Shown piece after piece: positions 27,104 to 47,297 of a DNA stretch of 48,764 nt (position 1 is the stretch's first letter; each line of letters opens with the position of its first letter). The notes beneath the pieces are model-generated. The model was not told the DNA's origin. It worked only from the letters and a program-made list of their open reading frames with translations, and made no database searches. The position numbers and the translations under genes are program-made. Source of the DNA: an uncultured Lachnospiraceae bacterium (GTDB lineage Bacteria; Bacillota; Clostridia; Lachnospirales; Anaerotignaceae); assembly GCA_944384295.1 (NCBI GenBank), contig CALWSU010000015.1, forward strand, positions 1-48,764, read 5' to 3'.

Positions 27104-27653
27104 GCGAAAAGAAAATAGATGAACAGAAGTAGGAAAAAGATTGATCGGACGGCGTGCAGACAAAAATCTGGGCTTTTCTCTCACGAGTCCAAGAAAGTGC
27201 CTACACCTTCGCAATCTGCTGAAAATCATTTTATAATACCATATATAAACACATGGTTTTTTGTGATACACAAATTCTCATAGAGAACACTACCGCCTAA
27301 CCAAATTTTTCAAAAACACCTCCTAACCACAATGGCATAAGAAACAATACGAACAAAGTAAATTTAGAATGAAAAAAATGATTTGCAAAATCGCTGTTAT
27401 TTTGTTCCATTTCTATGGAAAAATTGTCAACAATCAGCTCTTTATCATGATCTACTGATTCGATATAATAAGTAATGGTTTTTATGATATACCAGAAAGA
27501 AAACAGAAGTTGATAGCACAAGTATCATCATAATCATTTGGGACATGCTACGCAAATTTGCCCACATGCAACGGGTGGTTGACAGGAAACAAACCATAAT
27601 TGGTAGTATGCAACCAGCCTGATATCGTAGTATTTTTATCGGAGGTGTTACAT
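27104..27653. other. 550-base region without a convincing gene
   Basis: A minus-strand frame (27297-27521) could encode a 74-residue protein that ends in a hydrophobic stretch (FTLFVLFLMPLWLGGVF). A second, overlapping minus frame to its right is also hydrophobic and opens opposite the XRE gene. Together they could be one frameshifted membrane-protein gene, but neither has a good ribosome binding site or a recognisable family. Confidence 0.3.
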
Positions 27654-27995
27654 ATGGATTTCGCAGAAAGACTGCAAGAACTGCGTAAGACAGCAGGCTA
27701 TTCACAAGAACAAGTTGCCGAACTGTTAGGGCTGTCCAGACAAGCGATCTCAAAATGGGAAAGTGGACAAGGAAAACCCGAAATCGACAATATCATTAAA
27801 ATGACAGAGATTTATCATGTCAGTACGGATTATATTTTATTAGGGGTTGAAAACAAGTTGACCGTTCCAGAAAAGAAAAAAATGGAAAAAGAATATCGTG
27901 AAGCGATCAAGACGATTTCCATCATAGCGGCAACTGCTATCATTACCGTTCTTTTTATTACTTCACTGTCATTATTGCAAAAATTTGGTTTATAA
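27654..27995 (+). CDS. XRE-family (Cro/CI-type) transcriptional regulator with a C-terminal membrane segment
   Basis: 113 residues. An HTH_3 domain (5-60: RLQELRKTAGYSQEQVAELL, SRQAISKWESGQGKPEIDNI) is followed by a short linker and a hydrophobic helix (about 92-111, TISIIAATAIITVLFITSL). The HTH-plus-one-membrane-helix form is common in Firmicutes and implies a membrane-tethered regulator. GGAGGTG at 27641-27647 supports this ATG. It is 12 bases from the small lipoprotein gene, probably one operon. Confidence 0.92.
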   Translation: MDFAERLQELRKTAGYSQEQVAELLGLSRQAISKWESGQGKPEIDNIIKMTEIYHVSTDYILLGVENKLTVPEKKKMEKEYREAIKTISIIAATAIITVLFITSLSLLQKFGL

Positions 27996-28626: not shown

Positions 28627-29220
28627 TTATTTCACCAATTTATAAAAACTACTCCGTTTCAAACCCGTTTGCCGCATCGCTTCTTTTGCCGTAATTTCTC
28701 CGTTTTTCCACTGTCCTACCACCGTATCAAAATTTTCAGGTATGGCAATTTTCGGTCTGCCCAGATGTCTGCCTGCTAACTTCGCCGCCGCAATACCTTC
28801 CCGCTGTCTTGCACGAATCAACTCCCGTTCCTGCTGTGCCATACTGGACAACACTTCGATCAATATATGATGGATCATTTCCAGCAACCATTCTTGCCCT
28901 TCGGGTACTTGTACCATAGAAGTAGGCAGATCCAGTATCATCAATCGTATGCCATTTTTCTGAAACCATTCCAATTCCTTTTTGATATCGTCTTTCTTTC
29001 TGGAAAGCCGATCCAAAGATTTGATATAAAGTGTATCTCCACATCGAAGTCCCAAAGGTCCCTTCAATGCCTGATATCCCGGACGATTCAGGTCTTTCCC
29101 TGACTGTTTATCTACTACAATATTTTCTTCTGGCACATACTTTTTCAACGCGAACAGTTGTCTATCCAAATTTTGTTCTTTGGAACTGACGCGCGCGTAG
29201 CCCATCGTTTTATTTTCCAT
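28627..29220 (-). CDS. small serine recombinase (resolvase/invertase family), first
   Basis: 197 residues. N-terminal resolvase catalytic domain (1-140): GYARVSS with the nucleophilic serine at 12, KQSGKDLNRPGYQAL, and SLDRLSR arginines; then the long helix [22 protein letters not shown]-terminal helix-turn-helix (about 155-197, GEITAKEAMRQTGLKRSSFY) follows. It is expected to cut and rejoin paired DNA sites as a resolvase or invertase. It is related to the second small recombinase at 38908 (similar length, motif order and C-terminal HTH). Both lie in the same orientation at the two edges of the accessory block. Confidence 0.93.
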   Translation of the reverse strand: MENKTMGYARVSSKEQNLDRQLFALKKYVPEENIVVDKQSGKDLNRPGYQALKGPLGLRCGDTLYIKSLDRLSRKKDDIKKELEWFQKNGIRLMILDLPTSMVQVPEGQEWLLEMIHHILIEVLSSMAQQERELIRARQREGIAAAKLAGRHLGRPKIAIPENFDTVVGQWKNGEITAKEAMRQTGLKRSSFYKLVK

Positions 29221-29385
29221 ATTTTTTGCCTCCTATTCAAAAAAGTCATGTATTTTTCGGATATATCCAAAAAGTCAAAACCAACATTTTAGGATATTTT
29301 TTTGCTGAGATTTGGGCTGTTTTTCTATATCCACAAACGTCTACCTTTTTGGACAATTTTTGATTGTATGGATTTGATATAGAAC
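29221..29385. promoter_or_regulatory. repeat-rich upstream region of the first recombinase (possible crossover site)
   Basis: It contains AAAAAGTCA twice in direct orientation (about 29243 and 29269) around a GGATATATCC palindrome, and several related TTTTTGG/CCAAAAA segments. Resolvase crossover sites usually lie directly upstream of the gene, as here. Sub-site structure is not resolved. Confidence 0.35.
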
Positions 29386-29428: not shown

Positions 29429-30526
29429 CTATTTACAATGTTGTCTTAAAAGTTCCCATCTACGCATCAACATATCGTAATCTTTTTCCCTGCCATCAAA
29501 CCAATCTTTTTGTATCTCAGCTACTTGATGCATACCGATTTTTTTTACGGCTTCCAAAGCCGCTTCTTTTTGTGTCATACGCAAGGGCATGACTGTTTGA
29601 CAATTCGCCCCTTCTATATCCTCGTACGACTGAAACGACAAATTGAAATCCATCAAGGGATGCAATGCAATCGGTTTATTTTTTTTATTATCCACCAGAA
29701 ATCCCCAATTCCCCCAATGACGATCCACATTACCAATCAAATAATCTAATAGATTCATCATATAATAAGAATATCCATCCAATTTTAAAATATATTGGAT
29801 AGGGTCGATTTCATGATTGACTGCATATATTTCAAAAGCCTCTCTGGAAACGATAGAAAACTCTTTTGTTGTCATAATGTCACTGACTGAAACAAGCTCT
29901 CCATCATATTCTCCTAAAACATATTTGACTTGTTTACAATCAAAACACTGACAAACCTTACTTGCTAAAACTTCATTCTCTACAATCTCTTTCCCACCAT
30001 CTTTATATAGCTGGAAATGCTCCTTTTTTCTAATCCATGCTTTTGGATAACATCCATTGGTTGCCAAATCTTTTGCAAGTTCTTTTTCTAAATGCTGATT
30101 ATGAATGGTAAGCTGTTTTCCTCTTAAAGAAACATCTACCAACGCATTATCCAAATGATTTTCATATAAATTGACTTCTGCAAATGAAATTTTTTCTTTT
30201 TTCTGACGTACCCAATAAATATCTGTCAAAGACAAACAACGATATGACAAGGCAATGCTGGCACGTTCTTTATCTGTAAATGCCTGAGAAACGCCAATGC
30301 TATTCAAAATGGCTTTTGCATATTGACGATCTAGCGTCAAAATCCTACTAGCACACCAATACTGAAAATTCGTCACATTGTTTACCAAAATATCAATATC
30401 ATTTTCCGTTACTTCTAAGTATAAATTAAAGGGCATAAAACTTTTATAGTATATTTTACAATGTCCCTGTGTATCGATCCAAGCGACCTTTCTATCTCCG
30501 TGCATAATCTCATACACAATTTTCAT
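29429..30526 (-). CDS. HipA-like protein kinase-fold protein
   Basis: 365 residues. The C-terminal half has the HipA/CtkA kinase signature: GNVDRHWGNWGF (about 265-276; catalytic Asp and metal Asn) and LHPLMDFN (about 288-295; metal-binding Asp). The N-terminal 200 residues are not recognised. HipA-type kinases phosphorylate tRNA synthetases or other targets and often serve as toxins with a HipB partner; no HipB-like gene is adjacent. The start at 30526 has AAGGCGG 8 bases upstream and an extended -10 promoter of its own. It lies downstream of the amidoligase operon on the same strand. Confidence 0.82.
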   Translation of the reverse strand: MKIVYEIMHGDRKVAWIDTQGHCKIYYKSFMPFNLYLEVTENDIDILVNNVTNFQYWCASRILTLDRQYAKAILNSIGVSQAFTDKERASIALSYRCLSLTDIYWVRQKKEKISFAEVNLYENHLDNALVDVSLRGKQLTIHNQHLEKELAKDLATNGCYPKAWIRKKEHFQLYKDGGKEIVENEVLASKVCQCFDCKQVKYVLGEYDGELVSVSDIMTTKEFSIVSREAFEIYAVNHEIDPIQYILKLDGYSYYMMNLLDYLIGNVDRHWGNWGFLVDNKKNKPIALHPLMDFNLSFQSYEDIEGANCQTVMPLRMTQKEAALEAVKKIGMHQVAEIQKDWFDGREKDYDMLMRRWELLRQHCK

Positions 30527-30554
30527 ACCTCTCACCGCCTTTTATTCTGTATGG

Positions 30555-30563
30555 ATTATACCA
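30555..30563 (-). promoter_or_regulatory. extended -10 promoter of the HipA-like gene
   Basis: TGGTATAAT on the minus strand, 29 bases before the start codon. No good -35, as is common for extended -10 promoters. Confidence 0.5.
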
Positions 30564-30636
30564 CATATTTGGAAAGAATATCCAGAATGACATTATAAAA
30601 TGCCTTTTTCAAACATTTTTGCCGATTGGAACATAT

Positions 30637-31635
30637 TTAGACATATCCCAGTTCCATCAATTCCTCTACATACTCTCGCAATATCTCAGGGGAATATAAT
30701 AATGTTTCGATTTCTTCCTCTGTAAAACCATTTTGATAAAGATACAATATCTCCTCCTCCGAAATACCAACATTGACCGCGTAATCTATTAAGATTTCCA
30801 GATAAACACCATACTCTGTACATTTTGTGGTACTATGTTTGAAAGGTGTGACCTTCCAATCATATCCATAGCCGACACCACAACCATACAAGAAAGTATC
30901 ATAGTAATCTAGTTTCTTTGTGTCAAAAGACGCACGGCTCTGTGTTCCATCTGCCTGTAATATCAGAATATCACCTTGCTTTATTTTCACCTCTTTATGC
31001 GGATAGCGGAGAAAACCTGCTTTTTTCAATCCTTTCTTTAAAATCTCTTTTGTAGAAGCATAGATATAAAATCCCATCTTCTCAAAATGGTAAAGCACAA
31101 GCGGATTATTCCCCTTCACCAAATACAAAGTATTCTGTTCATCTAACACTGTAAAACAAAAAGAGCCTTCTACTTCTTCTGCCATTTTCTGAATGGCTTG
31201 CAAAGTGAAGGCTCCTGTTTTTTCAATCATCTGTACCGCTACATAACTATCTGTTTCAATCTGGGTTACAGGCAAGTGAAATGCCTTGCGCAGTTTCTTT
31301 TCATTACAAAGAACACCATTATGCGCAAGTGCAAAAGCAGTATTCTCACAACACCCATAAAATGGATGGTTGTTGTCGTTTCTTTTTGCATTGCCTTTGG
31401 TTGTAAGTCTGGTATGCCCCATCACAACATTGACACCTGCGGGAATTTTTTGGCGAAAATTATGTGCAGGTAATGGCTTTTTATGGATTTCCAGATGTCC
31501 ATTTTGGTTGTATGCAATACCTGTCGCATCTGTACCACGTTGTTCACAGGCAATGGAAAGCTGTCGCAACAGTTGATTTTTTTGTACTAAAGATAAGTTT
31601 TGTTTATAATCTAAAATTCCATAAAGACAACACAT
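30637..31635 (-). CDS. class II (Ntn-type) glutamine amidotransferase
   Basis: 332 residues. The N-terminal half is a GATase-II domain that releases ammonia from glutamine: MCCLYGILD with the nucleophile at Cys2, RGTDATGIA, MGHTRLTTKG, ALAHNGVLCN and ETDSY. The C-terminal 100 residues are unrecognised. Of two adjacent ATGs, the second (31635) is chosen because it leaves the catalytic cysteine at the mature N-terminus. It overlaps the amidoligase stop. In published comparative work, amidoligase/GATase-II pairs are proposed to modify peptides or proteins; the target here is unknown. Confidence 0.9.
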   Translation of the reverse strand: MCCLYGILDYKQNLSLVQKNQLLRQLSIACEQRGTDATGIAYNQNGHLEIHKKPLPAHNFRQKIPAGVNVVMGHTRLTTKGNAKRNDNNHPFYGCCENTAFALAHNGVLCNEKKLRKAFHLPVTQIETDSYVAVQMIEKTGAFTLQAIQKMAEEVEGSFCFTVLDEQNTLYLVKGNNPLVLYHFEKMGFYIYASTKEILKKGLKKAGFLRYPHKEVKIKQGDILILQADGTQSRASFDTKKLDYYDTFLYGCGVGYGYDWKVTPFKHSTTKCTEYGVYLEILIDYAVNVGISEEEILYLYQNGFTEEEIETLLYSPEILREYVEELMELGYV

Positions 31636-32726
31636 CATACTTCCTCCTCATCAATCTGTACTGGTTCATTGATATACAACTGACGTTCTTTTAAATAAGT
31701 AATCAACTGCGGTTCTGTAATCTGAGAAACAAACCGCCACCAGCTCAATGCTTGCAGTTCTTGCTCAGAATAAAAAATCGCTACTTTACAAATTTTTTCA
31801 ACCATTTGTAAAGTAGCGATCAATGTATTATATTTGAGTGTGCCACGCCACATGCGAAATTCAATAGTATTTGCATTTTGTAAATTGATGCAAGCATATC
31901 GCCCAATACCAGAACTTTTGGCATGATCCAATACCTGCTCTGGTTTCGCTTGAAACCCATAACGCGCTGCCCAATGATCCATCTGTCCTTGTGTGCGTCT
32001 GGAAAAACGCAACAATTCTTCCCAATATTTCTCTACCAAAAACAATACTTTTGCAATATTTTCTTCTTGCTTTGCATATGTTGCACCAAAGAAAGTTCTG
32101 TTTACATGGCAGTGCAAACCACAAGTACCAGACTTATGGGAACGATAGCCTAAAGAAAGTGCTTTTTTCGTCAAAGCCTGCCATGGCATTTCTTCCATAT
32201 GGTACTGTAATGTCATAGGATGTGTAACGATTTCAAAGCCTTCCTCTAAAGAACCGTCTGTTTTGATATAGATTCTGGTACCTTTTTCGTTGGCAATCTG
32301 TGTCAATATCTTTGCATTTCTGCGATTACAGCCACCATCATCCAATTCCAGTTCAACACCAAGAAACAAGTTGTCTGTGTCACCATAAAATATGGGTTCT
32401 GGTTTATAGTTATAATGATAAATCGATCCATTCTCAATACAATCGTCACATAACATGCGATCTTGTGCATCATAATGCACATTGTCTTGATGAATCACTC
32501 TGCCACATTCCTCACAATGGGTATAATAGTCATCAAAACAATGCATACAAAGTGTATGTTCTCCTGTCACACACGTCGCACGAAAAATACGAGTACCACA
32601 TTCTTCACAAAATGTTGTCAATTCGTCTAAACAATCGTAACACAATGTTCTATCATCCATATAATAAACTTCATCAATCCCACAATGACAGCCACATACG
32701 GAACAATAAATTTTATTTTCATACAT
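31635..32726 (-). CDS. amidoligase-family protein (glutamine synthetase-like ligase) with N-terminal zinc-binding repeats
   Basis: 363 residues. Residues 8-96 hold three to four CxxC pairs (CSVCG, CYDC, CEECG, CMHC, CEECG, CDDC), which look like zinc ribbons or treble-clef repeats. Residues about 120-340 match the Amidoligase_2 family: GVELELDDG (123-131), KTDGSLEEGFEIVTHP (155-170), CGLHCHVNR (202-210) and IEFRMWRGTLK. The family makes amide bonds between carboxyl and amine groups using ATP. GAGAGGAGG precedes the ATG. The middle of a DUF960 / amidoligase / GATase operon. Confidence 0.9.
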   Translation of the reverse strand: MYENKIYCSVCGCHCGIDEVYYMDDRTLCYDCLDELTTFCEECGTRIFRATCVTGEHTLCMHCFDDYYTHCEECGRVIHQDNVHYDAQDRMLCDDCIENGSIYHYNYKPEPIFYGDTDNLFLGVELELDDGGCNRRNAKILTQIANEKGTRIYIKTDGSLEEGFEIVTHPMTLQYHMEEMPWQALTKKALSLGYRSHKSGTCGLHCHVNRTFFGATYAKQEENIAKVLFLVEKYWEELLRFSRRTQGQMDHWAARYGFQAKPEQVLDHAKSSGIGRYACINLQNANTIEFRMWRGTLKYNTLIATLQMVEKICKVAIFYSEQELQALSWWRFVSQITEPQLITYLKERQLYINEPVQIDEEEV

Positions 32727-32740
32727 GTTTTTTCCTCCTC

Positions 32741-33037
32741 TCAATATTCCTCTGCCAACAACATTGTCGCATGGGTTTCATCATCAATGATATAAACCTT
32801 TTCTTTGAAATCCTGATCCACCGAACAAACCACAAATACAGTGTTTTCATAAGGCGGTACTTCTTGCTTATGACAAATGGAAACACCTTTGCTATCACCC
32901 TGCAATTCAAAGATTTGCAGATAATCTGGATCATCCATAATATCCACCATACACCAGAGCAGAATCTGTATGTCTTGTGGGATACGTGCATCAACTCCAG
33001 CTGTCAGGAACCTTTGATTTTGAAATCGTTTTTTCAT
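32741..33037 (-). CDS. DUF960-family protein
   Basis: 98 residues matching the DUF960 pattern (KKRFQNQRFLTAGVDARIPQ, ILLWCMVDIM, DYLQIFEL, HKQEVPPYENTV). Function is unknown. Members are frequent in plasmids and integrative elements of Firmicutes. GTAGGAGG precedes the ATG, and it ends 14 bases before the amidoligase start. It is the first gene of that operon and is preceded by the structured leader at 33061. Confidence 0.88.
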   Translation of the reverse strand: MKKRFQNQRFLTAGVDARIPQDIQILLWCMVDIMDDPDYLQIFELQGDSKGVSICHKQEVPPYENTVFVVCSVDQDFKEKVYIIDDETHATMLLAEEY

Positions 33038-33060: not shown

Positions 33061-33125
33061 AATAAAAAGAACCCGTAGGCGTAAACCTACGGGCTGGTGA
33101 TGACTCATCCATAGAATAATATATA
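33061..33125 (-). promoter_or_regulatory. structured leader / terminator hairpin before the DUF960 operon
   Basis: On the minus strand an AT-rich TATATATTATTC (33114-33125) is followed by a small hairpin (GATG-CATC), a strong one (33072-33079 with 33086-33093) and TTCTTTTTATTT. It may terminate transcription from the zinc-ribbon genes upstream. It could also be an attenuator, since only about 25 bases separate it from the DUF960 start. A similarly organised segment occurs at 39641. Confidence 0.55.
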
Positions 33126-33218: not shown

Positions 33219-34568
33219 TCATGATACGTCGTTCCGTTCGGAGAACTGTAAAAGAATATGTATATACTCTAGACATTCCATCATTAAAGAGTATACTTTA
33301 TCATCAACCACATAGATTTCCCACTTTGGAGCAATATCAATAGTATATATTGTGCTGTTTTTATCATAACTTATGGATGTTGTGACTTTTTTAAAGTTAT
33401 CCCAAGAAATCCTTCTTACAATAGTTTCTTCCTCATCTAAAACAAAAGAATAGATGTAATTTGTTCCTAAGATGATACCTCCATCTAAAATGGCAGCATT
33501 ATAACTGATTCTTCCAAATTGAAGGCATAAAATATTTTCGGATTGCGGAATACCGAACTCTTCATATAATTCTGATAAATCGTGTTCCCCATAGTCTTTT
33601 TTGTATACTTTCATACTTGCTTCAGATATATAACGAACGGAAGGAAATCTAAATAATGCATAAGATATCACAACAGAAATAAAATGATAGTTTTTATTTT
33701 CATCAAGATATTGTTTGAAGTCCAAGAGCAATTCCATATTGTCTTTTGCGTCAACATCTGCCTTATATATACTGGGAAACCCATCTCTTCCAATAGGGAC
33801 GGATTCACCTGGATCAGCTTTTTTCCAATGGCATAAAGGCAATCTTCTCTTTTTAAATCCTGCTGTATGGATCATTTGTAATAATAGAATCAAGCTTCTC
33901 ACAAATTCCTCTAATGCATAGATATCATCTTCTCTTATAAACATATTATTTTTTGCTACCACTGTATTATTAATCAGGATACTATCCCTTGTGACATCAA
34001 ATGCACATATATTCATGACATTGATTACGCCTTCATTGCCATTGTCTATAAAAATGAGTTCTTTTGAGGTAAATATGATACTGTTTTCTTGAATCAGTGT
34101 TAGGTAGGCTAAAAACAAGTTACCATCTTCTTCATAGTATTCATCCTTGGTGTTTTCTGAGAATTGATGAATATTTTTTTTCAGCATTTTATTATTACAT
34201 GTTTCCAGCAACTCGTTTATGAAGTATGGCAAATACCACTTTCTATCTAAAGCGGTGTAGGGCGTTTGTAAGCCGTATTGTTTTTCTTTTTCTATATCCA
34301 TGGAGATCTTTCTAAAATTTAAGCTCAGAGATGGTTGGTCTTTTAATAGACAAACATAAGAGTAGCTATCTATTTGGCTCCAATCTATATTTGAAAAAAC
34401 TTTATCATAAAAGAACATAAAGTCATTTATCCGTATCTCTTTATATTTCATCCAATGAGCTTTTGAAATTGTTTCTTTCTCAGGAAACGACTTCAATTTT
34501 CGATTTCCACATAAAGGACAAAATTCCAGATTATCGCCTATTGTGTTTTTACATTGGGGACAAATCAT
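33219..34568 (-). CDS. zinc-ribbon protein of unknown function
   Basis: 449 residues. N-terminal zinc ribbon (CPQCK-X9-CPLCG, residues 3-20), then a large soluble region with no family recognised. It contains beta-rich segments such as NSIIFTSKELIFIDNGNEGV and EIYVVDDKVYSLMMECLEYI, reminiscent of PH-like modules. No signal peptide or membrane helix is seen. AAAGGTG lies 9 bases before the ATG at 34568; the in-frame GTG at 34580 overlaps that site. It is the last of a run of four codirectional genes of similar style, 55 bases after the next one. Confidence 0.82.
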   Translation of the reverse strand: MICPQCKNTIGDNLEFCPLCGNRKLKSFPEKETISKAHWMKYKEIRINDFMFFYDKVFSNIDWSQIDSYSYVCLLKDQPSLSLNFRKISMDIEKEKQYGLQTPYTALDRKWYLPYFINELLETCNNKMLKKNIHQFSENTKDEYYEEDGNLFLAYLTLIQENSIIFTSKELIFIDNGNEGVINVMNICAFDVTRDSILINNTVVAKNNMFIREDDIYALEEFVRSLILLLQMIHTAGFKKRRLPLCHWKKADPGESVPIGRDGFPSIYKADVDAKDNMELLLDFKQYLDENKNYHFISVVISYALFRFPSVRYISEASMKVYKKDYGEHDLSELYEEFGIPQSENILCLQFGRISYNAAILDGGIILGTNYIYSFVLDEEETIVRRISWDNFKKVTTSISYDKNSTIYTIDIAPKWEIYVVDDKVYSLMMECLEYIHILLQFSERNDVS

Positions 34569-34623
34569 AATCTTACGCACCTTTCTACCTTATCTAATAG
34601 TATAATTGTTTTAAAATCAATGA

Positions 34624-35223
34624 TTAATTGATATATGTTAGGCAATCTTTTACTAATCCACTAAAAAAGAACTTAAAATCCCTTAGATGATCTAGGTAAG
34701 TAAGCGGAATGCTACGGCTCACTTTTTTACCAGGAACATTCAGGTTTAAATACATAACATGTGCCAGCAGAATTTTGTCATAGGTAACATTAGTAATCTG
34801 GTTCCAGAACCATTCTTCCTGTCGATTCCCAAATTTAATAATGATTCTATAATTGGTCAGAATAAAGCCCTCCTTAAAATCAGTTTCAAGCGTGCTGTTA
34901 TATTGATATATCAGCAACGGAACTTCGTCTTCAATACCTATAACGATACCTGCAATGCTGTTGACGATAAAATCATTTAATATTTCGCCTACAGACCAGG
35001 AATACCAGTGTTCTCCGAATTGTCTTGGAAAAAATGTATGATCTTCTACATGTTTTTTGATTTTTGCAGCCGCGGTTTTGGAAATACCTATATTTTTTTC
35101 AGAACACTCATCTTCTTGTTTGTTTTCTTTTATGGGGTTATTTTCTCTAATAATTCGCGTTCCACAATTACAACAAAATAAGTCCTCATCAGATAGTTTT
35201 TGTCCACACATAATACAATACAT
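34624..35223 (-). CDS. zinc-ribbon protein with PH-like domain
   Basis: 199 residues. Zinc ribbon CIMCG-X9-CCNCG (3-21), a charged linker, then a C-terminal domain with FKEGFILTNYRIIIKFGNRQ and QITNVTYDKI, typical of bacterial PH-like (bPH/YokE-type) folds. No membrane segment. It lies 14 bases after the next upstream gene, so it is co-transcribed. Function unknown; the shared ribbon suggests that the neighbours act together. Confidence 0.82.
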   Translation of the reverse strand: MYCIMCGQKLSDEDLFCCNCGTRIIRENNPIKENKQEDECSEKNIGISKTAAAKIKKHVEDHTFFPRQFGEHWYSWSVGEILNDFIVNSIAGIVIGIEDEVPLLIYQYNSTLETDFKEGFILTNYRIIIKFGNRQEEWFWNQITNVTYDKILLAHVMYLNLNVPGKKVSRSIPLTYLDHLRDFKFFFSGLVKDCLTYIN

Positions 35224-35237
35224 TTTTTACACCCTTT

Positions 35238-36227
35238 CTATTTTATTTTCAAAGTTTCCATAAGACGGAGCAATTCTCCATCTGCATCTCCTAAATGATC
35301 AAGTGCCCATTTATAAAATTGAGGATTAGCAGGATAGATCGATAGCATGGATAGAAAAGCTGCGATCATCCGCTCAGGAGCGATTTCTTTCTTAACCAAG
35401 CGCTGATAAATCTGTTTTGCTTTTTGCCTGTCTTGATAGAAATAAATACTAGCATTGTTATCAAAATCACAAAAAGTAACGCAATCTTCTAAAATTGCAT
35501 CGGAAATACTTTGACAAGTGTTTTCATTCAACAACTTCTCTATCATGCAACGATACCTTTGCTCTTCTTTATTTCCAGAATGAAAAATAGAGTACAAAAC
35601 ACCTGTGGTAGCATTGAATATACCAGCAGTGATGATACCTTTTGCTGCTCCAGAGATCCCAAATCCACCTCCTTGTATTTGAAATCTATTTTTCTTGGCT
35701 ATTTTTCTGTGGATACGATCATTGTTCCTAAGCTGTATTACATGCATTATTTCATCAAACACAGCTTTGGCTATTTTAGGTGCCTCTAAGAAGGGCATAG
35801 CCTGGTCGATGATCTTCTGTTTACTATGTGAAAAATCTTTTTCTTGTTCATATTTATTGATCACAATCTGTGCTGCTACCGCTTCACTGTTATCAACTAC
35901 TTGCGTAATCAAATCGATTTTTATTTCCATATTAGTATATGTAAGAAATTCCTTCTGAAATTTATCGGTAAATGATTTGCCTACATTCCAGTACAGCATG
36001 TGGTTTTGAGAAGATAATATGATAAGGTCATCAATTATAAAATCTTTTCCATATAGCGCGTATTTATATTTGGAATAAGATTTTTCGGAAGAAGGTGTTT
36101 TTTCTTTCGATACATCTCTGATTTCATCTAACCCAGTATCCGTATTTTCTTTGATGACTTCAGAGCCACAAGCAGGGCAGAATTTTCCCATTGTTGGTAT
36201 ATGCGCTCCACAATTTATACAAAACAA
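35238..36227 (-). CDS. zinc-ribbon protein with central glycine-rich segment
   Basis: 329 residues. Zinc ribbon CINCG-X9-CPACG (3-21), a helical middle region, then a glycine/alanine-rich hydrophobic stretch (about 190-215: GGGFGISGAAKGIITAGIFN) that could insert into a membrane or pack as a glycine zipper. A helical C-terminus with TPR-like texture (YPANPQFYKWALDHL) follows. No family recognised. It appears to be first of the three zinc-ribbon soluble-protein genes. Confidence 0.82.
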   Translation of the reverse strand: MFCINCGAHIPTMGKFCPACGSEVIKENTDTGLDEIRDVSKEKTPSSEKSYSKYKYALYGKDFIIDDLIILSSQNHMLYWNVGKSFTDKFQKEFLTYTNMEIKIDLITQVVDNSEAVAAQIVINKYEQEKDFSHSKQKIIDQAMPFLEAPKIAKAVFDEIMHVIQLRNNDRIHRKIAKKNRFQIQGGGFGISGAAKGIITAGIFNATTGVLYSIFHSGNKEEQRYRCMIEKLLNENTCQSISDAILEDCVTFCDFDNNASIYFYQDRQKAKQIYQRLVKKEIAPERMIAAFLSMLSIYPANPQFYKWALDHLGDADGELLRLMETLKIK

Positions 36228-38907: not shown

Positions 38908-39543
<636 letters not shown>

Positions 39544-39640
39544 CTAACCATTCTTGCATTGTAAAATCGTTGAGTTTTCAAATAAAATATAATGGATTCT
39601 ATATCATTTTTCTATTTCATTTCCATCACCTCATTTTCCA

Positions 39641-39737
39641 AATAAAAAGAGCCTATAGAACTAGTAAAATTCTATAAGCTCTTTTTGAATATCTTCCACA
39701 TTTAGCTAATCTAAATGTATCTAGGGAATAATATATA
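39641..39737 (-). promoter_or_regulatory. structured leader / terminator hairpin before the second recombinase
   Basis: On the minus strand TATATATTATTC (39726-39737) leads to a small hairpin (39699-39705 with 39711-39717), a 17-bp stem (39644-39660 with 39670-39686, one mismatch) and TTTTTATTT. It has the same order of elements and the same AATAAAAAGA edge as the leader at 33061. Confidence 0.6.
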
Positions 39738-39835
39738 TTTTCAAATTTTTGAAATGCGCAAGATTTGTAAAAAATCGATCATTACATGTCATCCTGCAAT
39801 CCATCTTACTTTTCTATGACCCCCAAATTGGGGAA

Positions 39836-39901
39836 AGCCCATCAGATTTCACTGCACACAGGAACCTTAAAATGATAATCTGACTGTTGTGCGTCTGGGC
39901 T
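39836..39901. ncRNA. candidate enclosed pseudoknot RNA or single-strand DNA structure
   Basis: Outer stem AGCCCA (39836-39841) with TGGGCT (39896-39901). Inside, TCAGATT (39842-39848) pairs with AATCTGA (39877-39883), while GCACACAG (39854-39861) pairs with CTGTTGTGC (39884-39892, one bulge). The order A-B-A'-B' is a pseudoknot, not a nested hairpin. No family was recognised and transcription is not shown. Confidence 0.45.
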
Positions 39902-39952
39902 CTACTTCTATAATATATCGTTATAATTTTTGATTTTACGCAAAGTAGTTTC

Positions 39953-40135
39953 TCATCGGTTAGATGGCGTTTGCAAATATACAATAAGATCTGATTTTAA
40001 AATGCGCCATTGATTCCCTACTTTTTTTGCTGGAATTTCTCCATTCTGCAAGAGGCGAAGCGTTACATTTTTGCCAATTCCTAATATATAAGAAACTACT
40101 TGCGGTGATAAAATATCATCGTATTCTTCAAGCAT
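39953..40135 (-). CDS. excisionase-like helix-turn-helix protein
   Basis: 60 residues forming a MerR/Xis-like winged helix (LSPQVVSYILGIGKNVTLRL, then PAKKVGNQWRILKSDLIVYL). Proteins of this type steer integrase or recombinase direction, or repress. AGGAGG precedes the ATG. It is separated by 82 bases from a similar gene on the same strand; both could be excision factors for the large serine recombinase downstream. Confidence 0.82.
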   Translation of the reverse strand: MLEEYDDILSPQVVSYILGIGKNVTLRLLQNGEIPAKKVGNQWRILKSDLIVYLQTPSNR

Positions 40136-40217
40136 ATCATTGCCTCCTATCTTTTTTTGTAAAATATACTGTTTCTATGTGGTATCAAATAAACCAAAAT
40201 AAACTTTTTCATCGTAG

Positions 40218-40418
40218 TTATGAAATGGAAGTTGATGTATTTTCTTTTTTATGGGTGGTTTGCAAAATATATCGCTCCAATTCGGAACGATGGATAACAA
40301 TTTTTCGCCCAATATGACCATATGCAATCTGACCAGATTTCAACATTTTATATGCTGTCGATTTTCCGATCCCCAATTCTTTGCAAAGTTGCGGGATTGT
40401 AATCAGATTTTCATTCAT
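40218..40418 (-). CDS. excisionase-like helix-turn-helix protein
   Basis: 66 residues with the DNA-binding excisionase (HTH_17) pattern: TIPQLCKELGIGKSTAYKML, then YGHIGRKIVIHRSELERYIL. AAAGGAG precedes the ATG. It is divergent from mobC across a 290-base region. Such proteins commonly control integration and excision or transcription of mobile elements. Confidence 0.88.
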   Translation of the reverse strand: MNENLITIPQLCKELGIGKSTAYKMLKSGQIAYGHIGRKIVIHRSELERYILQTTHKKENTSTSIS

Positions 40419-40708
40419 CGTAAAAACTCCTTTCTTTTAATTATTTAATCGTATGTTGTTGCAATAGAATGCTAACAAAAAGTAATTGCTACCAATTATT
40501 TGTAACGGGATACCAACAATAGGATAAAAATAAAAGTCGAATTTGTACGTACAAAATATAGTGTAAAAAATCGGCTTAGACAAATGGGGTGTTTACACAA
40601 AAATATGCAAGAAAATCTCTAAAATAAAAATTTGCGTATCCTGTTATATCACTTTGCAGCAATCACAAAAATCGTTTTCCTACTATAAATAAGAAAGGAA
40701 TGCTTGAT
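40419..40708. other. divergent intergenic region, candidate origin of transfer
   Basis: Between the HTH genes and mobC. It holds a perfect palindrome TTTGTACGTACAAA (40542-40555) and TATCCTGT (40637-40644), which matches the YATCCTGY nick-site consensus of IncP/MOB-P type relaxases. Location directly upstream of mobC and the relaxase is where an oriT is usually found. Promoters for mobC are likely within it but none stands out. Confidence 0.45.
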
Positions 40709-41017
40709 ATGAAAAAAATGGCACAAAATAAAACTGGAAAAAAAGAATGCAAAAATGCAAGAATAGAATGCAGACTAACTGAAAAACAAAAAGCAAAGAT
40801 TCAAAAGAAAGCCAAGACACATGGTATTTCCGCTTCTCAGTACATGATTTTATGTGCAATCCAAGACAAACAAAGCATACAAAAAGAAAAATTAGAAATA
40901 TATACCATTGTTACATTGGCACAGGAACTGGTTCGTTATGTACAAAATCGCTATAACGCAAAATACGATGATGAAACTTTGAATGAAAAGGTGGAAGAAT
41001 TATGGACAAAATTATGA
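40709..41017 (+). CDS. MobC-like relaxosome accessory protein
   Basis: 102 residues, very basic at the N-terminus. The core (NARIECRLTEKQKAKIQKKA, HGISASQYMI) matches ribbon-helix-helix mobilization proteins that bind oriT and help the relaxase. The start at 40709 has AAAGGA 9 bases upstream; the in-frame ATG at 40700 abuts that site. It overlaps the relaxase gene by 16 bases, so translation is coupled. Confidence 0.85.
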   Translation: MKKMAQNKTGKKECKNARIECRLTEKQKAKIQKKAKTHGISASQYMILCAIQDKQSIQKEKLEIYTIVTLAQELVRYVQNRYNAKYDDETLNEKVEELWTKL

Positions 41018-41487
41018 TAAAACGTGTCAACGCCAATTATTCTAAAGATTATGATGTAGAAAATATCATGCGTTATGTATGCAGTGAGAAACAAGAGCAT
41101 CAACACATGCAATTGCACTATTGGGATACACGTGGTCTACCTAAAAATTTAGAAAAAGCAATTGCTTTACTCAAAGCATCCCAACAATATATGGGAAAAG
41201 ATACAGGCAGAAGAATCAACCATATCGTAATTTCTTTCCCAGAAACCATACAAGATGTAACATTAGTTTATATCATTGCCAATCATCTGGCAGATTATTT
41301 GGGCAAAGAATATACCTTGATTTATGGTATCCATACGGATACAAATCATTTACATATACATTTTGCCTTGAATACTATCAGCTATCGCACTGGGAAAAAA
41401 TTTCATACCAACCAAAAAGAATTTGCAGAATGGAAAAGACAGATTTTGATTCAAATTGAAAATATCCTAGTGGAATGGAAAATATAA
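41002..41487 (+). CDS. minimal or truncated relaxase
   Basis: 161 residues corresponding to only the nuclease domain of a Relaxase/MobA-VirD2 protein (PF03432). Motif III, the metal-binding triad, is intact: HTDTNHLHIHFALN with His111, His116, His118 and His120. Catalytic tyrosine candidates lie near the N-terminus (Tyr13, Tyr17, Tyr25). Typical MOB-P relaxases are 300-600 residues, so the C-terminal half is missing. A short coding-looking stretch (WNGKYKIVFDAQTVNCETN) in another frame just after the stop could be a decayed extension. It would nick oriT and pilot DNA for conjugative mobilization by a helper. Confidence 0.8.
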   Translation: MDKIMIKRVNANYSKDYDVENIMRYVCSEKQEHQHMQLHYWDTRGLPKNLEKAIALLKASQQYMGKDTGRRINHIVISFPETIQDVTLVYIIANHLADYLGKEYTLIYGIHTDTNHLHIHFALNTISYRTGKKFHTNQKEFAEWKRQILIQIENILVEWKI

Positions 41488-41558
41488 AATTGTCTTTGAT
41501 GCCCAAACAGTAAACTGTGAAACAAATCTCCAGCAATGATGAATTTTTAAAAAATCCG

Positions 41559-41598
41559 CTGTATGTGCTGTATAGCATTACATACAGTGAAATTCATA
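41559..41598. repeat. inverted repeat plus 14-bp motif shared with the next promoter region
   Basis: CTGTATGT (41559-41566) faces ACATACAG (41580-41587). It overlaps CAGTGAAATTCATA (41585-41598), which recurs exactly at 43695-43708. Confidence 0.6.
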
Positions 41599-41713
41599 AT
41601 GATATTTGATTTTCATTCCTTTCTATATGTTCTGTCACTTGTCTTGATTTCACAAAAGGTTATAATAATTATATCAATATCAACCATCAATTACATGACA
41701 AGGGGTGAAACAT

Positions 41714-43432
41714 ATGACAAAAGAAACCAATTTTTATAATTCGATTATCAAACAATTGATTTTGCATTACCAGCAATTAGATGTCATAACAGATCCAAAT
41801 ACACTTTGCCACTTCACAGACACAGAATATCAAATCGAAACTGGGCGCAAAAATCTGAATGGCTTGGTCACTAATTTCATCAGTGAAACAGATTGCCATG
41901 ATGAAACAGCCAAACAAGAAAATGCACGGATATACGATGCCATGCGAAAAAATGTATCACGTTGTTTGGACGTATGGCAACAATCTCATATACCTCTAAT
42001 GCCAGAATTAGATTTTACAAAACCTCAATTTTATTTAGAGCAATATCCACAAGAGGATGCATTGAAATTTTTGCAGGCATTTTTAGAAATCACGACAGGT
42101 TTAGACCAGTCTAATCTGCAAGTCAATCGTAGAATCAAACATAACTTGAATGCAAAAATAGACATAGAAAATGATTTTTCTGTAATCAATAAAATATTTG
42201 CTGCAATGGACAGCTCTTTTACAGAAATACCATTTCAAAAATTCATGAAAGAGTATGATCAAATTTTATCTTGGTACATACGTGAAATTCGTGAAAAATA
42301 TATAAATGATATACAAGCTGAGATAAAAGACCATAATATTATAAATCGACCAGATCAATACTTGCAAGTAATCAAAAGTATCTTTACTGTTACAAACGCT
42401 CACATCCATCAAATACAACCAAATATGTTCTTAAATCATCCAGTACAACAGGATATATGCTCATGTGAAATGATATTAGCAAAAATACAAACTATCAGAT
42501 TACGATGGCAACTGATGGTGAAACATATTTGTCAAATCATTGATTATCTCATGCTGCGACGAGATATTCACAAAGAAAATATACAAGAAATTTGTGAAAA
42601 AATAGAAGCAATCCCTATAAAACAATATCAAAGAAAATATCAAAGCAGAAGCTTAATCAACGATTTCTTGACGTATCACAATATTTTGTATATACAAAAT
42701 GAATTTTTAGAGGAACTACGTGTACAAATCTACAAACTACAATTTATAGAACAGCAACCTCCGATTGCGGATGAATATCGTTTTTTAGAAGATGATAATT
42801 CCATCAAAAAAAAATTCGATGACGTCAATGTCCTTGCTCTAAGTGGCAAAGAATTGCAAGAATACAATACCTATTTTAATCTAGGACAGGAAGTCTCACA
42901 TAAAACATTTCAAAAATATATCCACTTTCTCAAAGAACAGGTTCCTACTTTTAACACAAAAACAGGTCGCGATTTGCATCCAGAAGAAGATATTAGTGTT
43001 TGTAGAGCTTTGTATAGAACCTTTTTTTCTTGTCCATCATTTGTATACAAACAAAATACAAAAGATAATAACGACAACACACAAAAACAAATAAGCAAAA
43101 AAAAATTTTATAATCTTTGGAAAGAATACGAAGAAAAGAACACAATGTCATCTCTTGAATATCTTGCATATAGCAATACGCTTTCCTGTTTGATCATTTT
43201 GGAATCTAAAAACGGAGCAGAACACTTTGAATGCAAAACCAACTTAATGATAAGCATGTATAAAGTGTTAAATTTGGCACTTATTCAGCTTCTTACAGAA
43301 GCAAGTGAGGAAACTTGTCTGAAACATTGTATGGACGAAATCGATCAGCTATTTGTCAAACTTGTTTCTGTGATATATCCTGATCTCAACTGGCAAGAAC
43401 TACAACCCTACGACCCATACAAACAAACCTAA
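41714..43432 (+). CDS. 572-residue protein of unknown function in the mobilizable element
   Basis: Largely helical, Gln/Asn/Lys-rich soluble protein without signal peptide or membrane helices. No Walker, HUH, zinc-finger or polymerase motif recognised. Recognisable stretches include FLQAFLEITTGLDQSNLQVN, PFQKFMKEYDQILSWYIREI and YSNTLSCLIILESKNGAEHF. AAGGGG lies 8 bases before the ATG at 41714. It is followed by a terminator and the ATPase gene, both with a shared motif upstream. It may be a replication or regulatory protein of the element, which is inference from position. Confidence 0.85.
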   Translation: MTKETNFYNSIIKQLILHYQQLDVITDPNTLCHFTDTEYQIETGRKNLNGLVTNFISETDCHDETAKQENARIYDAMRKNVSRCLDVWQQSHIPLMPELDFTKPQFYLEQYPQEDALKFLQAFLEITTGLDQSNLQVNRRIKHNLNAKIDIENDFSVINKIFAAMDSSFTEIPFQKFMKEYDQILSWYIREIREKYINDIQAEIKDHNIINRPDQYLQVIKSIFTVTNAHIHQIQPNMFLNHPVQQDICSCEMILAKIQTIRLRWQLMVKHICQIIDYLMLRRDIHKENIQEICEKIEAIPIKQYQRKYQSRSLINDFLTYHNILYIQNEFLEELRVQIYKLQFIEQQPPIADEYRFLEDDNSIKKKFDDVNVLALSGKELQEYNTYFNLGQEVSHKTFQKYIHFLKEQVPTFNTKTGRDLHPEEDISVCRALYRTFFSCPSFVYKQNTKDNNDNTQKQISKKKFYNLWKEYEEKNTMSSLEYLAYSNTLSCLIILESKNGAEHFECKTNLMISMYKVLNLALIQLLTEASEETCLKHCMDEIDQLFVKLVSVIYPDLNWQELQPYDPYKQT

Positions 43433-43784
43433 TTTCATGTTTCATTTGCTTGCATCATCGAACTGCATGCATAACTATCGTCATATGCAACCAATGAGGC
43501 AATCAGTGATATGCTTCATTTTACAGCACAAAGGCACCTTTCTATTTTAGGTTCCATTCTATACGATAAGAAATCCATTCATCTAAAAATTTTAAGGACT
43601 TGTACATTCCCTAATACAAGTCCTTTTTTTGTGTGCATATTACAGGAACAGAGTACAAACAACATTTGAGGTAAAAATCATACTTTCTAGCGTCCAGTGA
43701 AATTCATAGAAAAATCAGATACTATGATTTCAGAACTTGCGCAAGTAATACCACTGGATACCAATCAGAAAGGAAGTTTATATT
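43433..43784. other. intergenic region with terminator and shared motif
   Basis: No gene seen. It contains the 43594 terminator and CAGTGAAATTCATA (43695-43708), with AGAAAGGAAG as ribosome binding site of the ATPase gene at its end. Confidence 0.6.
43594..43631 (+). terminator. Rho-independent terminator after the 572-residue protein gene
   Basis: AAGGACTTGTA pairs perfectly with TACAAGTCCTT (11-base loop), followed by a T-run. Confidence 0.85.
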
Positions 43785-45305
43785 ATGAATCACCATGACT
43801 TAACCATTATTTCACAAGCTATGACGAAACCAATTTTTTCTCTAGCGCTTTCGGGTCACATATTGGGTATTATGAAAAAACGTCTTATGGCAGAAGCCAA
43901 TTTTGAGAGTTTCCCACTCTTGGTTTTGATTGGCGCACCCCAAACTGGTAAATCTGCCGTATTTCGGGCAGCAATTCCTGACGAAACACATCGCAAATCT
44001 ACATTTGATGGATTTCGAGAAATCAAAAAATTTATACAAACCAAGGACACAGAATATATTTTAATTGATGATGTATCCGCAACCAAAAACAACTCCAAAA
44101 AACAGCAGTATGCCAGAATTTTAGATGACATTGGTCGTGCTTCTTATGAAGGCAGTTCTTGTATCATTGGTATGACAATGGAAGAAACCACTTTGCGTTA
44201 TTTCCCAACCTCTTGTATTCAAAGAATGTTATTGGCAGATACCAATGATTTTTGGAACAGAGAAAATCAGCAGTTCACCAAAGAACTGCGCCAGTGCAGT
44301 GCAACATTAAAAATACTTTTAGATGCTTTTCGTGATTGGTTTGCCAAACAGACAACCTCCTTTGCAGATAACTTGAACCATTACGAAAGTTTGCATCTTT
44401 CTGAAATGGAAAAACATTCTCGACTGGTACATACTACATTTGCTTACTGGACAGCGGTAGAATACTATTTCAAATTTTTACGAAATATCTCGCCTGCTGT
44501 TTATGATGAATTGCATATTTCGGTAAAAAACGTCTTAGCGCAGTTGGTGACACCTTTTTTTGATCCGATGCAGACCACAAAAATGAAACGTATACAATTA
44601 TTTATGCAAAGCTTATATCACGTAATACAAAGCCAAACACTCGCAGTACAAAAACCAGAACCATTTGAAAATTTATGTAAAGCTTACGCTTATGGTACAT
44701 GTCTACAATGTCAAACATATTCGGGCTTTTCTTACAATTATGATTGTCAATATGATGATTCAGAAATCAGTCATTGTTATAATCCGGCTGACCTTGTGAT
44801 CCGTACCAACTATAACGCTCTATTTCTAAAAGATGCCAGACAAGTACCCATCTTTCCAAAACATTTAAAGGATACAGGAAGTTTCCCCGTTTTGCTGATC
44901 CATCGAGATGTATTATTGGATTTGATCAATCGCGCTTGCAGTCGGATTTGTCACCAAGAACAGAAACAGACATATCCTTTTCATATGGCAGAGATGACAA
45001 AATATTTGTATCAACTCAATATGCTTCTATTTTTACCAGGTGCAAAAAACAATCGATATTCTATCCCACATTATTACGAATGTTATGAAGAAAACAAAAA
45101 CGTAGACATCAGTCCCCTTTCTGTATTCATCATCAGACTGACTCCAGAAATTGCAGAAATAATGGACCAAAATATAGAATCATTTCGTCCAAAACCTTTC
45201 CAACAGGGCTATGCCAAAGAGATGGCAAAAAATCTTTCCTATCATTGGTATCGTTTGGTAACTACATATGGTGCTATTGGAGTATATGATGAATCAGAAA
45301 CGTAA
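43785..45305 (+). CDS. P-loop ATPase of the mobilizable element
   Basis: 506 residues. Walker A GAPQTGKS (50-57) and Walker B YILIDDV (91-97), with an arginine-finger-like RYFPTSCIQRMLLAD about residue 140. It looks like the ATPase core of DUF927/primase-helicase-type mobile-element proteins. The C-terminal 350 residues are unrecognised and contain a Cys-rich patch (CLQCQTYSGFSYNYDC). AGAAAGGAAG precedes the ATG. It probably acts in replication or DNA processing of the element; the family call is tentative but ATP binding is well supported. Confidence 0.8.
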   Translation: MNHHDLTIISQAMTKPIFSLALSGHILGIMKKRLMAEANFESFPLLVLIGAPQTGKSAVFRAAIPDETHRKSTFDGFREIKKFIQTKDTEYILIDDVSATKNNSKKQQYARILDDIGRASYEGSSCIIGMTMEETTLRYFPTSCIQRMLLADTNDFWNRENQQFTKELRQCSATLKILLDAFRDWFAKQTTSFADNLNHYESLHLSEMEKHSRLVHTTFAYWTAVEYYFKFLRNISPAVYDELHISVKNVLAQLVTPFFDPMQTTKMKRIQLFMQSLYHVIQSQTLAVQKPEPFENLCKAYAYGTCLQCQTYSGFSYNYDCQYDDSEISHCYNPADLVIRTNYNALFLKDARQVPIFPKHLKDTGSFPVLLIHRDVLLDLINRACSRICHQEQKQTYPFHMAEMTKYLYQLNMLLFLPGAKNNRYSIPHYYECYEENKNVDISPLSVFIIRLTPEIAEIMDQNIESFRPKPFQQGYAKEMAKNLSYHWYRLVTTYGAIGVYDESET

Positions 45306-45407
45306 TATCTCAAAATAGAAATATATATCATCTATATGTATATGGAATATCACATATAAAGTACAACTCAAACAGCATACATTAACAAAAAAAGGAGGTG
45401 CAGTATT

Positions 45408-45551
45408 ATGAAAACAAACACAAATACATTCTGCATAAGCGTATTTCAAAATGGGTGTAGTAAACCCACCTGCGAACATTTTACAAAAGTATGGATCGAC
45501 TTAATCAATGGCATCGAACGCAGCAAAGAAAGCATAACCGTCGGAAAATAA
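45408..45551 (+). CDS. 47-residue small protein upstream of the large recombinase
   Basis: Small open frame with an excellent AAAGGAGGTG (45391-45400) seven bases before the ATG. The product starts MKTNTNTFCISVFQNG and contains CSKPTCEHF and a helical KVWIDLINGIERSKES tail. Two cysteines near residues 18 and 22 could bind metal. It lies between the ATPase and the recombinase gene, 66 bases upstream of the latter, with a hairpin between. Not recognised as a known family. Confidence 0.7.
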   Translation: MKTNTNTFCISVFQNGCSKPTCEHFTKVWIDLINGIERSKESITVGK

Positions 45552-45561
45552 CAATAAAACA

Positions 45562-45588
45562 CCCCTGTATTGTTTTCATACAGGGGCA
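45562..45588 (+). promoter_or_regulatory. hairpin between the small protein gene and the recombinase gene
   Basis: ACCCCTGTAT (45562-45571) pairs with ATACAGGGG across a short loop. No T-run follows; the sequence continues into the recombinase ribosome binding site. It may be an attenuator or mRNA-stabilising stem. Confidence 0.5.
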
Positions 45589-45617
45589 TCTATCCAACAG
45601 GAAAGGAGGTTTTCGCT

Positions 45618-47165
45618 ATGAAAGTAGCCATCTATTGCCGTTTGTCTGAAGAAGATCGAAATAAATCCAATGCCGCAGACGATAGCGCGAGTATTTTGAA
45701 TCAAAAATCTATGCTCCTGCAATATGCCATTTCACAAGACTGGGAAGTATACAATATTTACAGTGATGATGATTACACAGGTGCAGACCGAAATCGCCCC
45801 GAATTCCAACGCCTTTTGGAAGATGCCAAAAACAGAAAATTTGACATCATACTATGCAAAACACAATCTCGCTTCACACGTGAATTAGAACTGGTAGAAA
45901 AATACATTCATGGATTATTCCCTCAATGGGGCATTCGATTTGTCAGCATTGTAGATCACGCGGATACCGATATCAAAGGCAACAAAAAATCCCGTCAAAT
46001 CAACGGCTTAGTCAATGAATGGTATCTGGAAGATATGTCAGAAAATATTCGCAGTGTATTGAAAAACAGACGACAAAATGGATTGCATATCGGTGCGACT
46101 GCATTATACGGTTATCAAAAAGATCCTGAACAGAAAGGACACCTCATCATTGATGAAGAAGCGGCAAAAGTCGTCCGCGAAGTATTCCTTCTATTTTCTC
46201 AGGGATATGGTAAATCTACAATTGCCAGAATGCTCAATGACAGAGGGATTCCAAACCCATCGGAATATAAACGGCAAAAAGGCATCTCTCCACCCAAACA
46301 TAAAAACAGCACACTTTGGAAATATTCTGCCATATCCAGTATGTTGGCAAATGAAATGTACATAGGCAACATGGTACAAGGAAAATATGGCAGTGTATCG
46401 TACAAAACAAAGAAAAATAAACCGCGCCCAAAGGAACAATGGTATCGTGTAGAAGGAACGCACGAACCCATCATAGACCTAGCATTATGGAACAAAGTAC
46501 AGGCAATGCGAGAACAAAAAGCAAAGCCATTTACAGTAGGTACCATCGGGCTATTCTCTAAGAAAGCACATTGCGCAGAATGTGGGTATATCTTGCGCTC
46601 TGGCAAGCGCGGGGATTGGCGCTACCTGACCTGCCCCAACCGTTCTGTATCCAAAAATGCCTGCAAAGGCGCATTTATTTCCGTGGATCGTTTGGAGCGC
46701 AAAATCATTGATGAACTCAAGCGATTGTCAGCAGAATACCTAGATCAAGATGAACTAGAACGCAATATTACATGCAGCAATCATTACGAAAACCAGAAAA
46801 CACAGATACGAGAAACCATAACAGCATATGAAAAAAAGATACAAGAATATACCACAGCGATTCGCGAATTGTATATGGACAAAGTCAAAGGGATTTTGAC
46901 AGAAAGTGATTATTTAGATTTATCAAAAGCATTTACTTCTGAAAAAAACAGATTAGAACAAAATTTAGGATATGCCAAAAACCAACTGACAGAAATAGAA
47001 ATGCGCAAAGAAACGGGGAATCAGAAAAAAGCGTTGATTGAAAAATATATGAATATGGAACATCTGACAAGGGAAATGATAGATGCCTTGATTGACCATA
47101 TTGATGTTGGACGCAGAATCCCAGGAACAAAAGACGTACCTATTACGATTTATTGGAATTTTTAG
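45618..47165 (+). CDS. large serine recombinase (integrase of the mobilizable element)
   Basis: 515 residues. Catalytic domain (1-150): YCRLSEED with nucleophile Ser10, DDYTGADRNRPEFQRLL, KTQSRFTRELELVEKYIHGL. Recombinase domain (about 155-300: GATALYGYQKDPEQ, YGKSTIARMLNDRGIPNPSE). Zinc ribbon (Cys about 319 and 322, 339 and 349: HCAECGY, LTCPN, NACKG). A long coiled coil (about 380-490) follows. The layout is that of TndX/TnpX/phage integrases that insert and excise elements between att sites. AAGGAGGT at 45603-45610 supports the ATG at 45618. It is the last gene of the element. Confidence 0.95.
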   Translation: MKVAIYCRLSEEDRNKSNAADDSASILNQKSMLLQYAISQDWEVYNIYSDDDYTGADRNRPEFQRLLEDAKNRKFDIILCKTQSRFTRELELVEKYIHGLFPQWGIRFVSIVDHADTDIKGNKKSRQINGLVNEWYLEDMSENIRSVLKNRRQNGLHIGATALYGYQKDPEQKGHLIIDEEAAKVVREVFLLFSQGYGKSTIARMLNDRGIPNPSEYKRQKGISPPKHKNSTLWKYSAISSMLANEMYIGNMVQGKYGSVSYKTKKNKPRPKEQWYRVEGTHEPIIDLALWNKVQAMREQKAKPFTVGTIGLFSKKAHCAECGYILRSGKRGDWRYLTCPNRSVSKNACKGAFISVDRLERKIIDELKRLSAEYLDQDELERNITCSNHYENQKTQIRETITAYEKKIQEYTTAIRELYMDKVKGILTESDYLDLSKAFTSEKNRLEQNLGYAKNQLTEIEMRKETGNQKKALIEKYMNMEHLTREMIDALIDHIDVGRRIPGTKDVPITIYWNF

Positions 47166-47195
47166 GAACGGCAAACACGCCGTTCCTTTGTTCGT
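47165..47195 (+). terminator. Rho-independent terminator of the recombinase gene
   Basis: GGAACGGC pairs with GCCGTTCC, followed by TTTGTTCGTTTT. It overlaps the stop codon. Confidence 0.8.
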
Positions 47196-47297
47196 TTTAT
47201 TTTGATAGCATGATGTACAAAATATATACACATGCCTCTAGTGGTTTATAAAAAAATTTATTTCACAACCATTAAAATCATTTTTTAGCCAACATTT

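Follow-up and report, generated by a model that had tools for sequence, protein, structure and literature searches.

Pairs of an amidoligase and a glutaminase were reportedly predicted by Iyer et al. in 2009 to modify peptides, and we know of no Amidoligase_2 enzyme for which a substrate has been identified experimentally. The present analysis concerns a cassette containing such a pair, composed of genes for a DUF960 protein, an amidoligase (AML) and a class II glutamine amidotransferase (GAT), on a 48,764-nucleotide contig of an uncultured Lachnospiraceae bacterium from the Anaerotignaceae (CALWSU010000015.1, assembly GCA_944384295.1; the whole of this stretch is called the window below). For the amidoligase of phage phiEco32, a passage of PMC11318856 citing Iyer 2009 carries the suggestion that it modifies the envelope against competitors. 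Phage pairs such as Marvin gp105-gp106 and those of the LUZ24-like phages likewise place an Amidoligase_2 gene beside or near a class II glutaminase; unlike in the window, the Marvin pair has no annotated DUF960 next to it, and in the LUZ24-like phage UFV-P2 an HNH endonuclease lies between amidoligase and glutaminase, with further ligases nearby (excerpts of PMC3890496). Tn6164 and the C. clostridioforme prophages also bring an amidoligase onto Clostridial mobile elements; as far as the relevant passages of PMC3485107 and PMC11318856 go, its partner there is a gamma-glutamyl cyclotransferase-like gene, whereas the partners in the window are a class II glutaminase and DUF960.

DUF960 itself appears, together with DUF950 and DUF1643, among the small open reading frames (ORFs) of staphylococcal cassette chromosome (SCC) elements, according to a passage of PMC7581432. 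The accessory block of these elements (DUF950, DUF960, DUF1643 and Ccr) places DUF960 near serine recombinases, as here (passages of PMC7581432, PMC10581047 and PMC12540322). It differs from the window, which has a small recombinase and an amidoligase-glutaminase pair; the excerpts of the DUF960 literature that were found do not mention an amidoligase. No Ccr-type large serine recombinase lies next to the window DUF960, the neighbouring recombinase being a small protein of 197 aa. PafA and Dop of the pupylation system resemble AML in having a carboxylate-amine ligase fold related to glutamine synthetase; they differ in that no Pup-like protein was found here and the conserved C-terminus of DUF960 is ordered in the structure model. 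A literature search that reached few subscription journals returned no paper in which an amidoligase and DUF960 occur together, and the cassette therefore appears to be undescribed.

We hold with moderate confidence that DUF960-AML-GAT is a co-inherited cassette, often found beside a small serine recombinase, which amidates the carboxylate of a protein or peptide to the benefit of the mobile element carrying it. The genes succeed one another on the minus strand in the order DUF960, AML and GAT, with the following features:

32741-33037, minus strand: DUF960 protein of 98 aa, first gene of the cassette (PF06124, 89.3 bits, cut-off 25)
31635-32744 with a TTG start, or 31635-32726 with an ATG start, minus strand: AML, Amidoligase_2 (PF12224, 30.2 bits, cut-off 22)
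32439-32705, minus strand: six CxxC pairs forming the LIM-like fingers of AML, residues 14-102 of the TTG-start protein
30637-31638, or 30637-31635 from the second ATG, minus strand: GAT, class II glutamine amidotransferase (PF13522, 54.5 bits, cut-off 27)
33070-33095, minus strand: terminator-like hairpin in the DUF960 leader, 32-58 nt before the start codon

These assignments agree with those of the first-pass annotation, which had been made from the letters and reading frames of the window: all three genes score above their Pfam cut-offs and share one strand. For AML, the ATG at 32726, which stands behind a GGAGG, is the more likely start, in preference to the TTG at 32744. The AML stop and the GAT start overlap in ATGATG (31638-31633), and initiation at its second ATG gives GAT a Met-Cys-Cys N-terminus; class II enzymes require a Met-Cys N-terminus. 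The motifs of both enzymes are intact. All 24 of the aligned AML homologues share E131, E133, D163-G164-S165, E171, H211, H213, E295, R297 and G301-T302-L303-K304 without exception, and the window GAT carries MCCLYG, GHTRLTTKG, AHNGVL and ETDS; we take these to be the catalytic residues of the respective enzyme classes. The active site is thus not degenerate. The earlier suggestion of an enzyme predicted to form amides with ATP, its gene overlapping that of an ammonia supplier, is upheld.

Structure modelling and fold matches predict a glutamine-synthetase-type fold with unbroken motifs for AML, near YbdK and the gamma-glutamyl ligases, which act on small substrates. Its twelve finger cysteines, in six CxxC pairs, are likewise invariant in the 24 aligned homologues. 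The nearest solved relatives of this region are LIM domains, both in a weak profile comparison (E 0.006 to 0.08) and by fold (LMO2, E 0.005; PINCH, E 0.04-0.05). The first-pass annotation had described N-terminal zinc repeats that might choose the target; the repeats proved to be six LIM-like CxxC pairs, and they could indeed select a target. DUF960 resembles the solved protein 2r41 (profile E 1.9e-5; structure model TM 0.86), which was also its sole Foldseek match at E < 0.001, a result that does not by itself show other folds to be absent. Its C-terminal TMLLAEEY is nearly invariant. A role as a Pup-like tag was considered and rejected: the C-terminus is ordered in the model, and the EY end also occurs on two plasmid copies with no annotated amidoligase in the stretch shown; a third, fused copy lacks the EY end. 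On a Clostridioides plasmid (L246:3-5303), DUF960 forms the C-terminal domain of a methylase-helicase protein of about 1,770 residues.

Taken together in one scheme, GAT would hydrolyze glutamine and pass the ammonia to AML, which would use ATP to activate the carboxylate of the substrate and then couple it with the ammonia. The protein or peptide substrate would dock on the LIM-like fingers, DUF960 may serve as a small adaptor assisting the enzymes, and the serine recombinase would relocate or reorganise the surrounding DNA. Gene order, gene overlap, intact motifs, co-inheritance, the nearby recombinase and the sharp ends of paralogous copies are direct observations and the fold is a computed one, while the catalytic steps, the substrate, the part played by DUF960 and the gain to the element are inferred.

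The co-inheritance of the cassette was surveyed with an AML-alignment scan of one genome per species, which confirmed at least 392 loci, and the best 80 of these were analysed. GAT adjoins AML in 78 of the 80, more than expected by chance; of the two without it, L066 lies on a contig that ends 15 bases further on, the other being L073. DUF960 is found within 3 kb of AML in 45 of the 80 loci, and in 44 of those 45 it is upstream. From the other direction, a search for the DUF960 family in 291 genomes of the class recovered 12 copies in 10 genomes, with AML directly following in 9 of the 12 (the window included; some copies are cut by contig ends). At one locus (L256), DUF960 is followed by an ORF that resembles DUF1643 by eye and then by one resembling a recombinase. 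Among AML, GAT and DUF960 the distance matrices show correlations of 0.81-0.87; length and position filters left 74 of the 80 loci for GAT, 43 for DUF960 and 36 for the recombinase. In 999 permutations no value as high as any of the six correlations was obtained, those with the recombinase included. A second set from the order-level search comprises 16 loci (L223-L238), all with a GAT match. In nine of these (L224, L225, L226, L227, L229, L230, L231, L232 and L234) a small recombinase immediately precedes AML on its strand, occupying the place that DUF960 holds in other loci.

The genes flanking the cassette on its downstream side are:

28627-29220, minus strand: small serine recombinase of the resolvase/invertase type, 197 aa (PF00239, 101.3 bits)
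29237-29353: possible recombination site just upstream of the recombinase, with a palindrome at 29254-29273 and short repeats
29429-30535, minus strand: HipA/CtkA-like kinase homologue, outside the cassette and judged a separate insertion

The flanking resolvase noted at first pass is real. In NCBIfam none of the five genes scored over the curated cut-off of a family. Among relatives, 33 of the 66 loci with enough sequence carry a small serine recombinase in the first 2 kb downstream of GAT, as against 0/16, 0/52, 0/60 and 1/69 in the upstream bins and 5/60, 1/59 and 1/59 in bins further downstream (these counts omit loci short of sequence in a bin and ORFs of at least 300 aa). It is a regular neighbour of the cassette that evolves more loosely than the three genes. 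In both the window and L038 a repeat search found short repeats with a palindrome or inverted repeat just before the recombinase; these could be its site of action, though short repeats of this kind can also arise by chance.

The distribution of the cassette is patchy: counting short and weak matches, AML has a match in 15 of 58 family genomes, in 36 of 295 from the order and in 24 of 291 from the class. One B. pullicaecorum assembly alone supplies five of the 80 loci (L068, L086, L090, L101 and L111). In four of these paralogous copies a block of about 2.52 kb with sharp ends recurs at 86-88% identity: the 3' end is identical in all four and stands against unrelated sequence, and the 5' end could be judged only in L101, L111 and a viral contig (L118), because L068 and L086 end at a contig edge. 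A viral scan with a single AML protein gave no matches; with the AML alignment A1 it gave 75 loci, 51 of which have GAT near AML. AML-GAT pairs are also present in phage Marvin and in an M. abscessus plasmid, and the AML genes of a C. difficile phage and plasmid have no annotated glutaminase in the stretch shown.

Several observations weigh against the proposed function or its generality. The 80 loci are the best of at least 392, and some genomes contributed several copies. No DUF960 lies within 3 kb of AML in 35 of the 80, and just 2 of the 16 loci in the second set have one; DUF960 is thus not essential to the AML-GAT pair. Conversely, DUF960 occurs without AML in 3 of its 12 copies in the class, and on plasmids. 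Many loci lack the recombinase, whose distances correlate only weakly with those of the cassette genes (0.30-0.44), and a search for element ends found no flanking repeats longer than 14 nt in the loci scanned. Finally, GAT might equally release ammonia for a small-molecule substrate.

One alternative, which we think unlikely, is that the substrate is a small molecule or a component of the cell envelope, with the amidation of a wall or surface precursor shutting out competing phages or elements. It parallels the suggestion made for the phiEco32 amidoligase in the above passage of PMC11318856, and both the carriage of AML-GAT pairs by phages and the proximity of the AML fold to enzymes of small substrates would suit it. 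Against this, the LIM-like fingers with their 12 invariant cysteines suggest a macromolecular partner for AML, and none of the neighbour clusters that recurred in at least six loci proved to be a wall or surface gene, not all of the unlabelled clusters being annotated.

Another alternative, also unlikely, concerns tiny hydrophobic ORFs of about 20-47 residues, sometimes two in succession and often with an acidic end, which we noticed beside the cassette in L040, L042, L047, L050, L054, L056, L068, L086, L088, L092, L101 and L111. Their presence at cassette edges is a new observation, and the peptides may be likened to Fst-type toxins or leaderless bacteriocins. On this alternative the cassette would amidate the co-encoded peptides (~20-45 residues) on Asp/Glu side chains or at the C-terminus, switching a membrane-active peptide on or off. 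In its fullest and equally doubtful form, this would be a novel type of mobile peptide-amidation system, in which a LIM-fingered ligase of glutamine-synthetase fold and its ammonia supplier cap the acidic tails of tiny, often paired, membrane peptides of toxin- or bacteriocin-like character, thereby switched on or off, as the unit spreads in gut Clostridia beside small serine recombinases.

By criteria set after the first look (17-60 residues, ATG or GTG start, ribosome-site match of at least 4, a hydrophobic stretch), such an ORF is present in 31 of the 80 loci, compared with 2.7 on average and at most 7 when dinucleotides were shuffled 20 times, and with 7 on the reverse strand. Changes among related copies number 76 synonymous versus 33 others, with about 29 synonymous expected, and the excess is seen in six of eight groups at p < 0.02; the counts were made against one sequence rather than on a tree, and omit group Aga2 (5 vs 12), which was read in the wrong frame. 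At least two acidic residues (D/E) occur in the last eight positions of 16 of 29 non-redundant peptides, compared with 24 of 308 shuffle-derived ones. The ORF overlaps the DUF960 start in L040 and L042. One of the peptides is represented by seven database entries, including an identical one, and a homologue search of 10 genomes gave matches in five, in four of which one is adjacent to AML as judged by coordinates. The evidence on the other side is that one of those four genomes has a homologue at a second place away from a known AML, and the fifth has a weak unplaced match. Moreover, 13 of the 29 peptides have no acidic tail; neither the window nor its nearest relative L038 yielded such an ORF, with weak candidates only in the window; and by the same criteria none of 13 second-set loci has one (shuffles 0.2), while 8 of 51 viral loci do (shuffles 1.4), only L118 among these eight showing the acidic kind. 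The 13 are those of 17 second-set loci in which AML and GAT lie close together; the 51 are drawn from the 75 viral loci. The peptides are linked to the enzymes as substrates by proximity alone.

Such a compact form of the pair, found in gut Clostridia together with a small partner that is inherited alongside it and, in many relatives, with a tiny peptide encoded next to it, supplies definite candidates for the substrate, which a simple mass measurement could test. Through the cassette DUF960, an unexplained small SCC protein, is moreover connected with an enzyme.

The kinase next door, which the first-pass annotation had called HipA-like, is related to HipA and CtkA, although remotely: HipA_C scores 19 bits, under its cut-off of 30.5, and the best solved match is CtkA (E 2.5e-4). 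A HipA-like match was found in three among 192 loci plus the window, two of which are this same locus (the window and L001), and the third a weak match (L037, 2.6e-7) beside a broken AML copy. Beyond these the four genes do not co-occur among the searched loci, and membership of the kinase in the set in which it had first been placed is not supported. Its close orthologues (58-87% identity) are in eight other genomes of the family (G011, G014, G055, G001, G013, G032, G033 and G030), six without an AML match, G001 matching residues 2-66 only and G030 having AML on another contig. The kinase block alone matches four other genomes (L194-L197) at 75-81% DNA identity. In the nearest relative, an Anaerotignum assembly (L035/L038), the recombinase and GAT homology blocks are 102 bp apart with no kinase between them. 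By consensus scan only, the kinase has its own promoter-like match at 30584-30555 and its own terminator-like match at 29419-29386. Nor does it resemble a HipBA toxin-antitoxin pair, as no HipB-like DNA-binding gene adjoins it; its same-strand neighbours are GAT and the recombinase, and the nearest helix-turn-helix gene found (27600-27995) is on the opposite strand beyond the recombinase. We judge the kinase to be a bystander, probably inserted separately beside the cassette. That all four genes constitute one conflict or element-maintenance system is accordingly very improbable, and a conserved four-gene set is already contradicted by these data, even though the genes are adjacent on one strand in the window and the kinase matches the PADLOC candidate model PDC-M03A at 2e-11. 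Of the mobile conflict or defence set first envisaged, the mobile-element setting stands, and a defence role has no direct support from PADLOC, where AML, GAT, DUF960 and the recombinase matched no family of the 2023 library at E 0.1.

Terminator-like hairpins precede DUF960 in 24 of 46 leaders, compared with 7.3 expected from single-base shuffles, which are a weak control. They differ in stem sequence between loci and may represent attenuators; an Rfam scan of the window gave 0 matches. In L092 (9088-13172), AML-GAT shares one block with DUF4314, DUF1643, DUF960 and a large serine recombinase, an arrangement that can be likened to the accessory set of SCC elements; in L093, L094, L103 and L106 DUF960 is about as far from the pair as in L092. 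Three adjoining proteins at 33219-36227 of the window, all under Pfam cut-offs, begin with a zinc-ribbon-like N-terminus, and L039 has a zinc-ribbon protein downstream of its recombinase too. Further along, the window holds a likely mobilisable element near the cassette (38908-48761):

38908-39534: second small recombinase
40700-41487: NikA-like and relaxase genes
45570-47165: large serine recombinase, about 12 kb from the cassette
47298-48761: part of a type I restriction subunit

Elsewhere, tandem amidoligase genes are seen in L238, where one glutaminase follows them, and in G264:C152.

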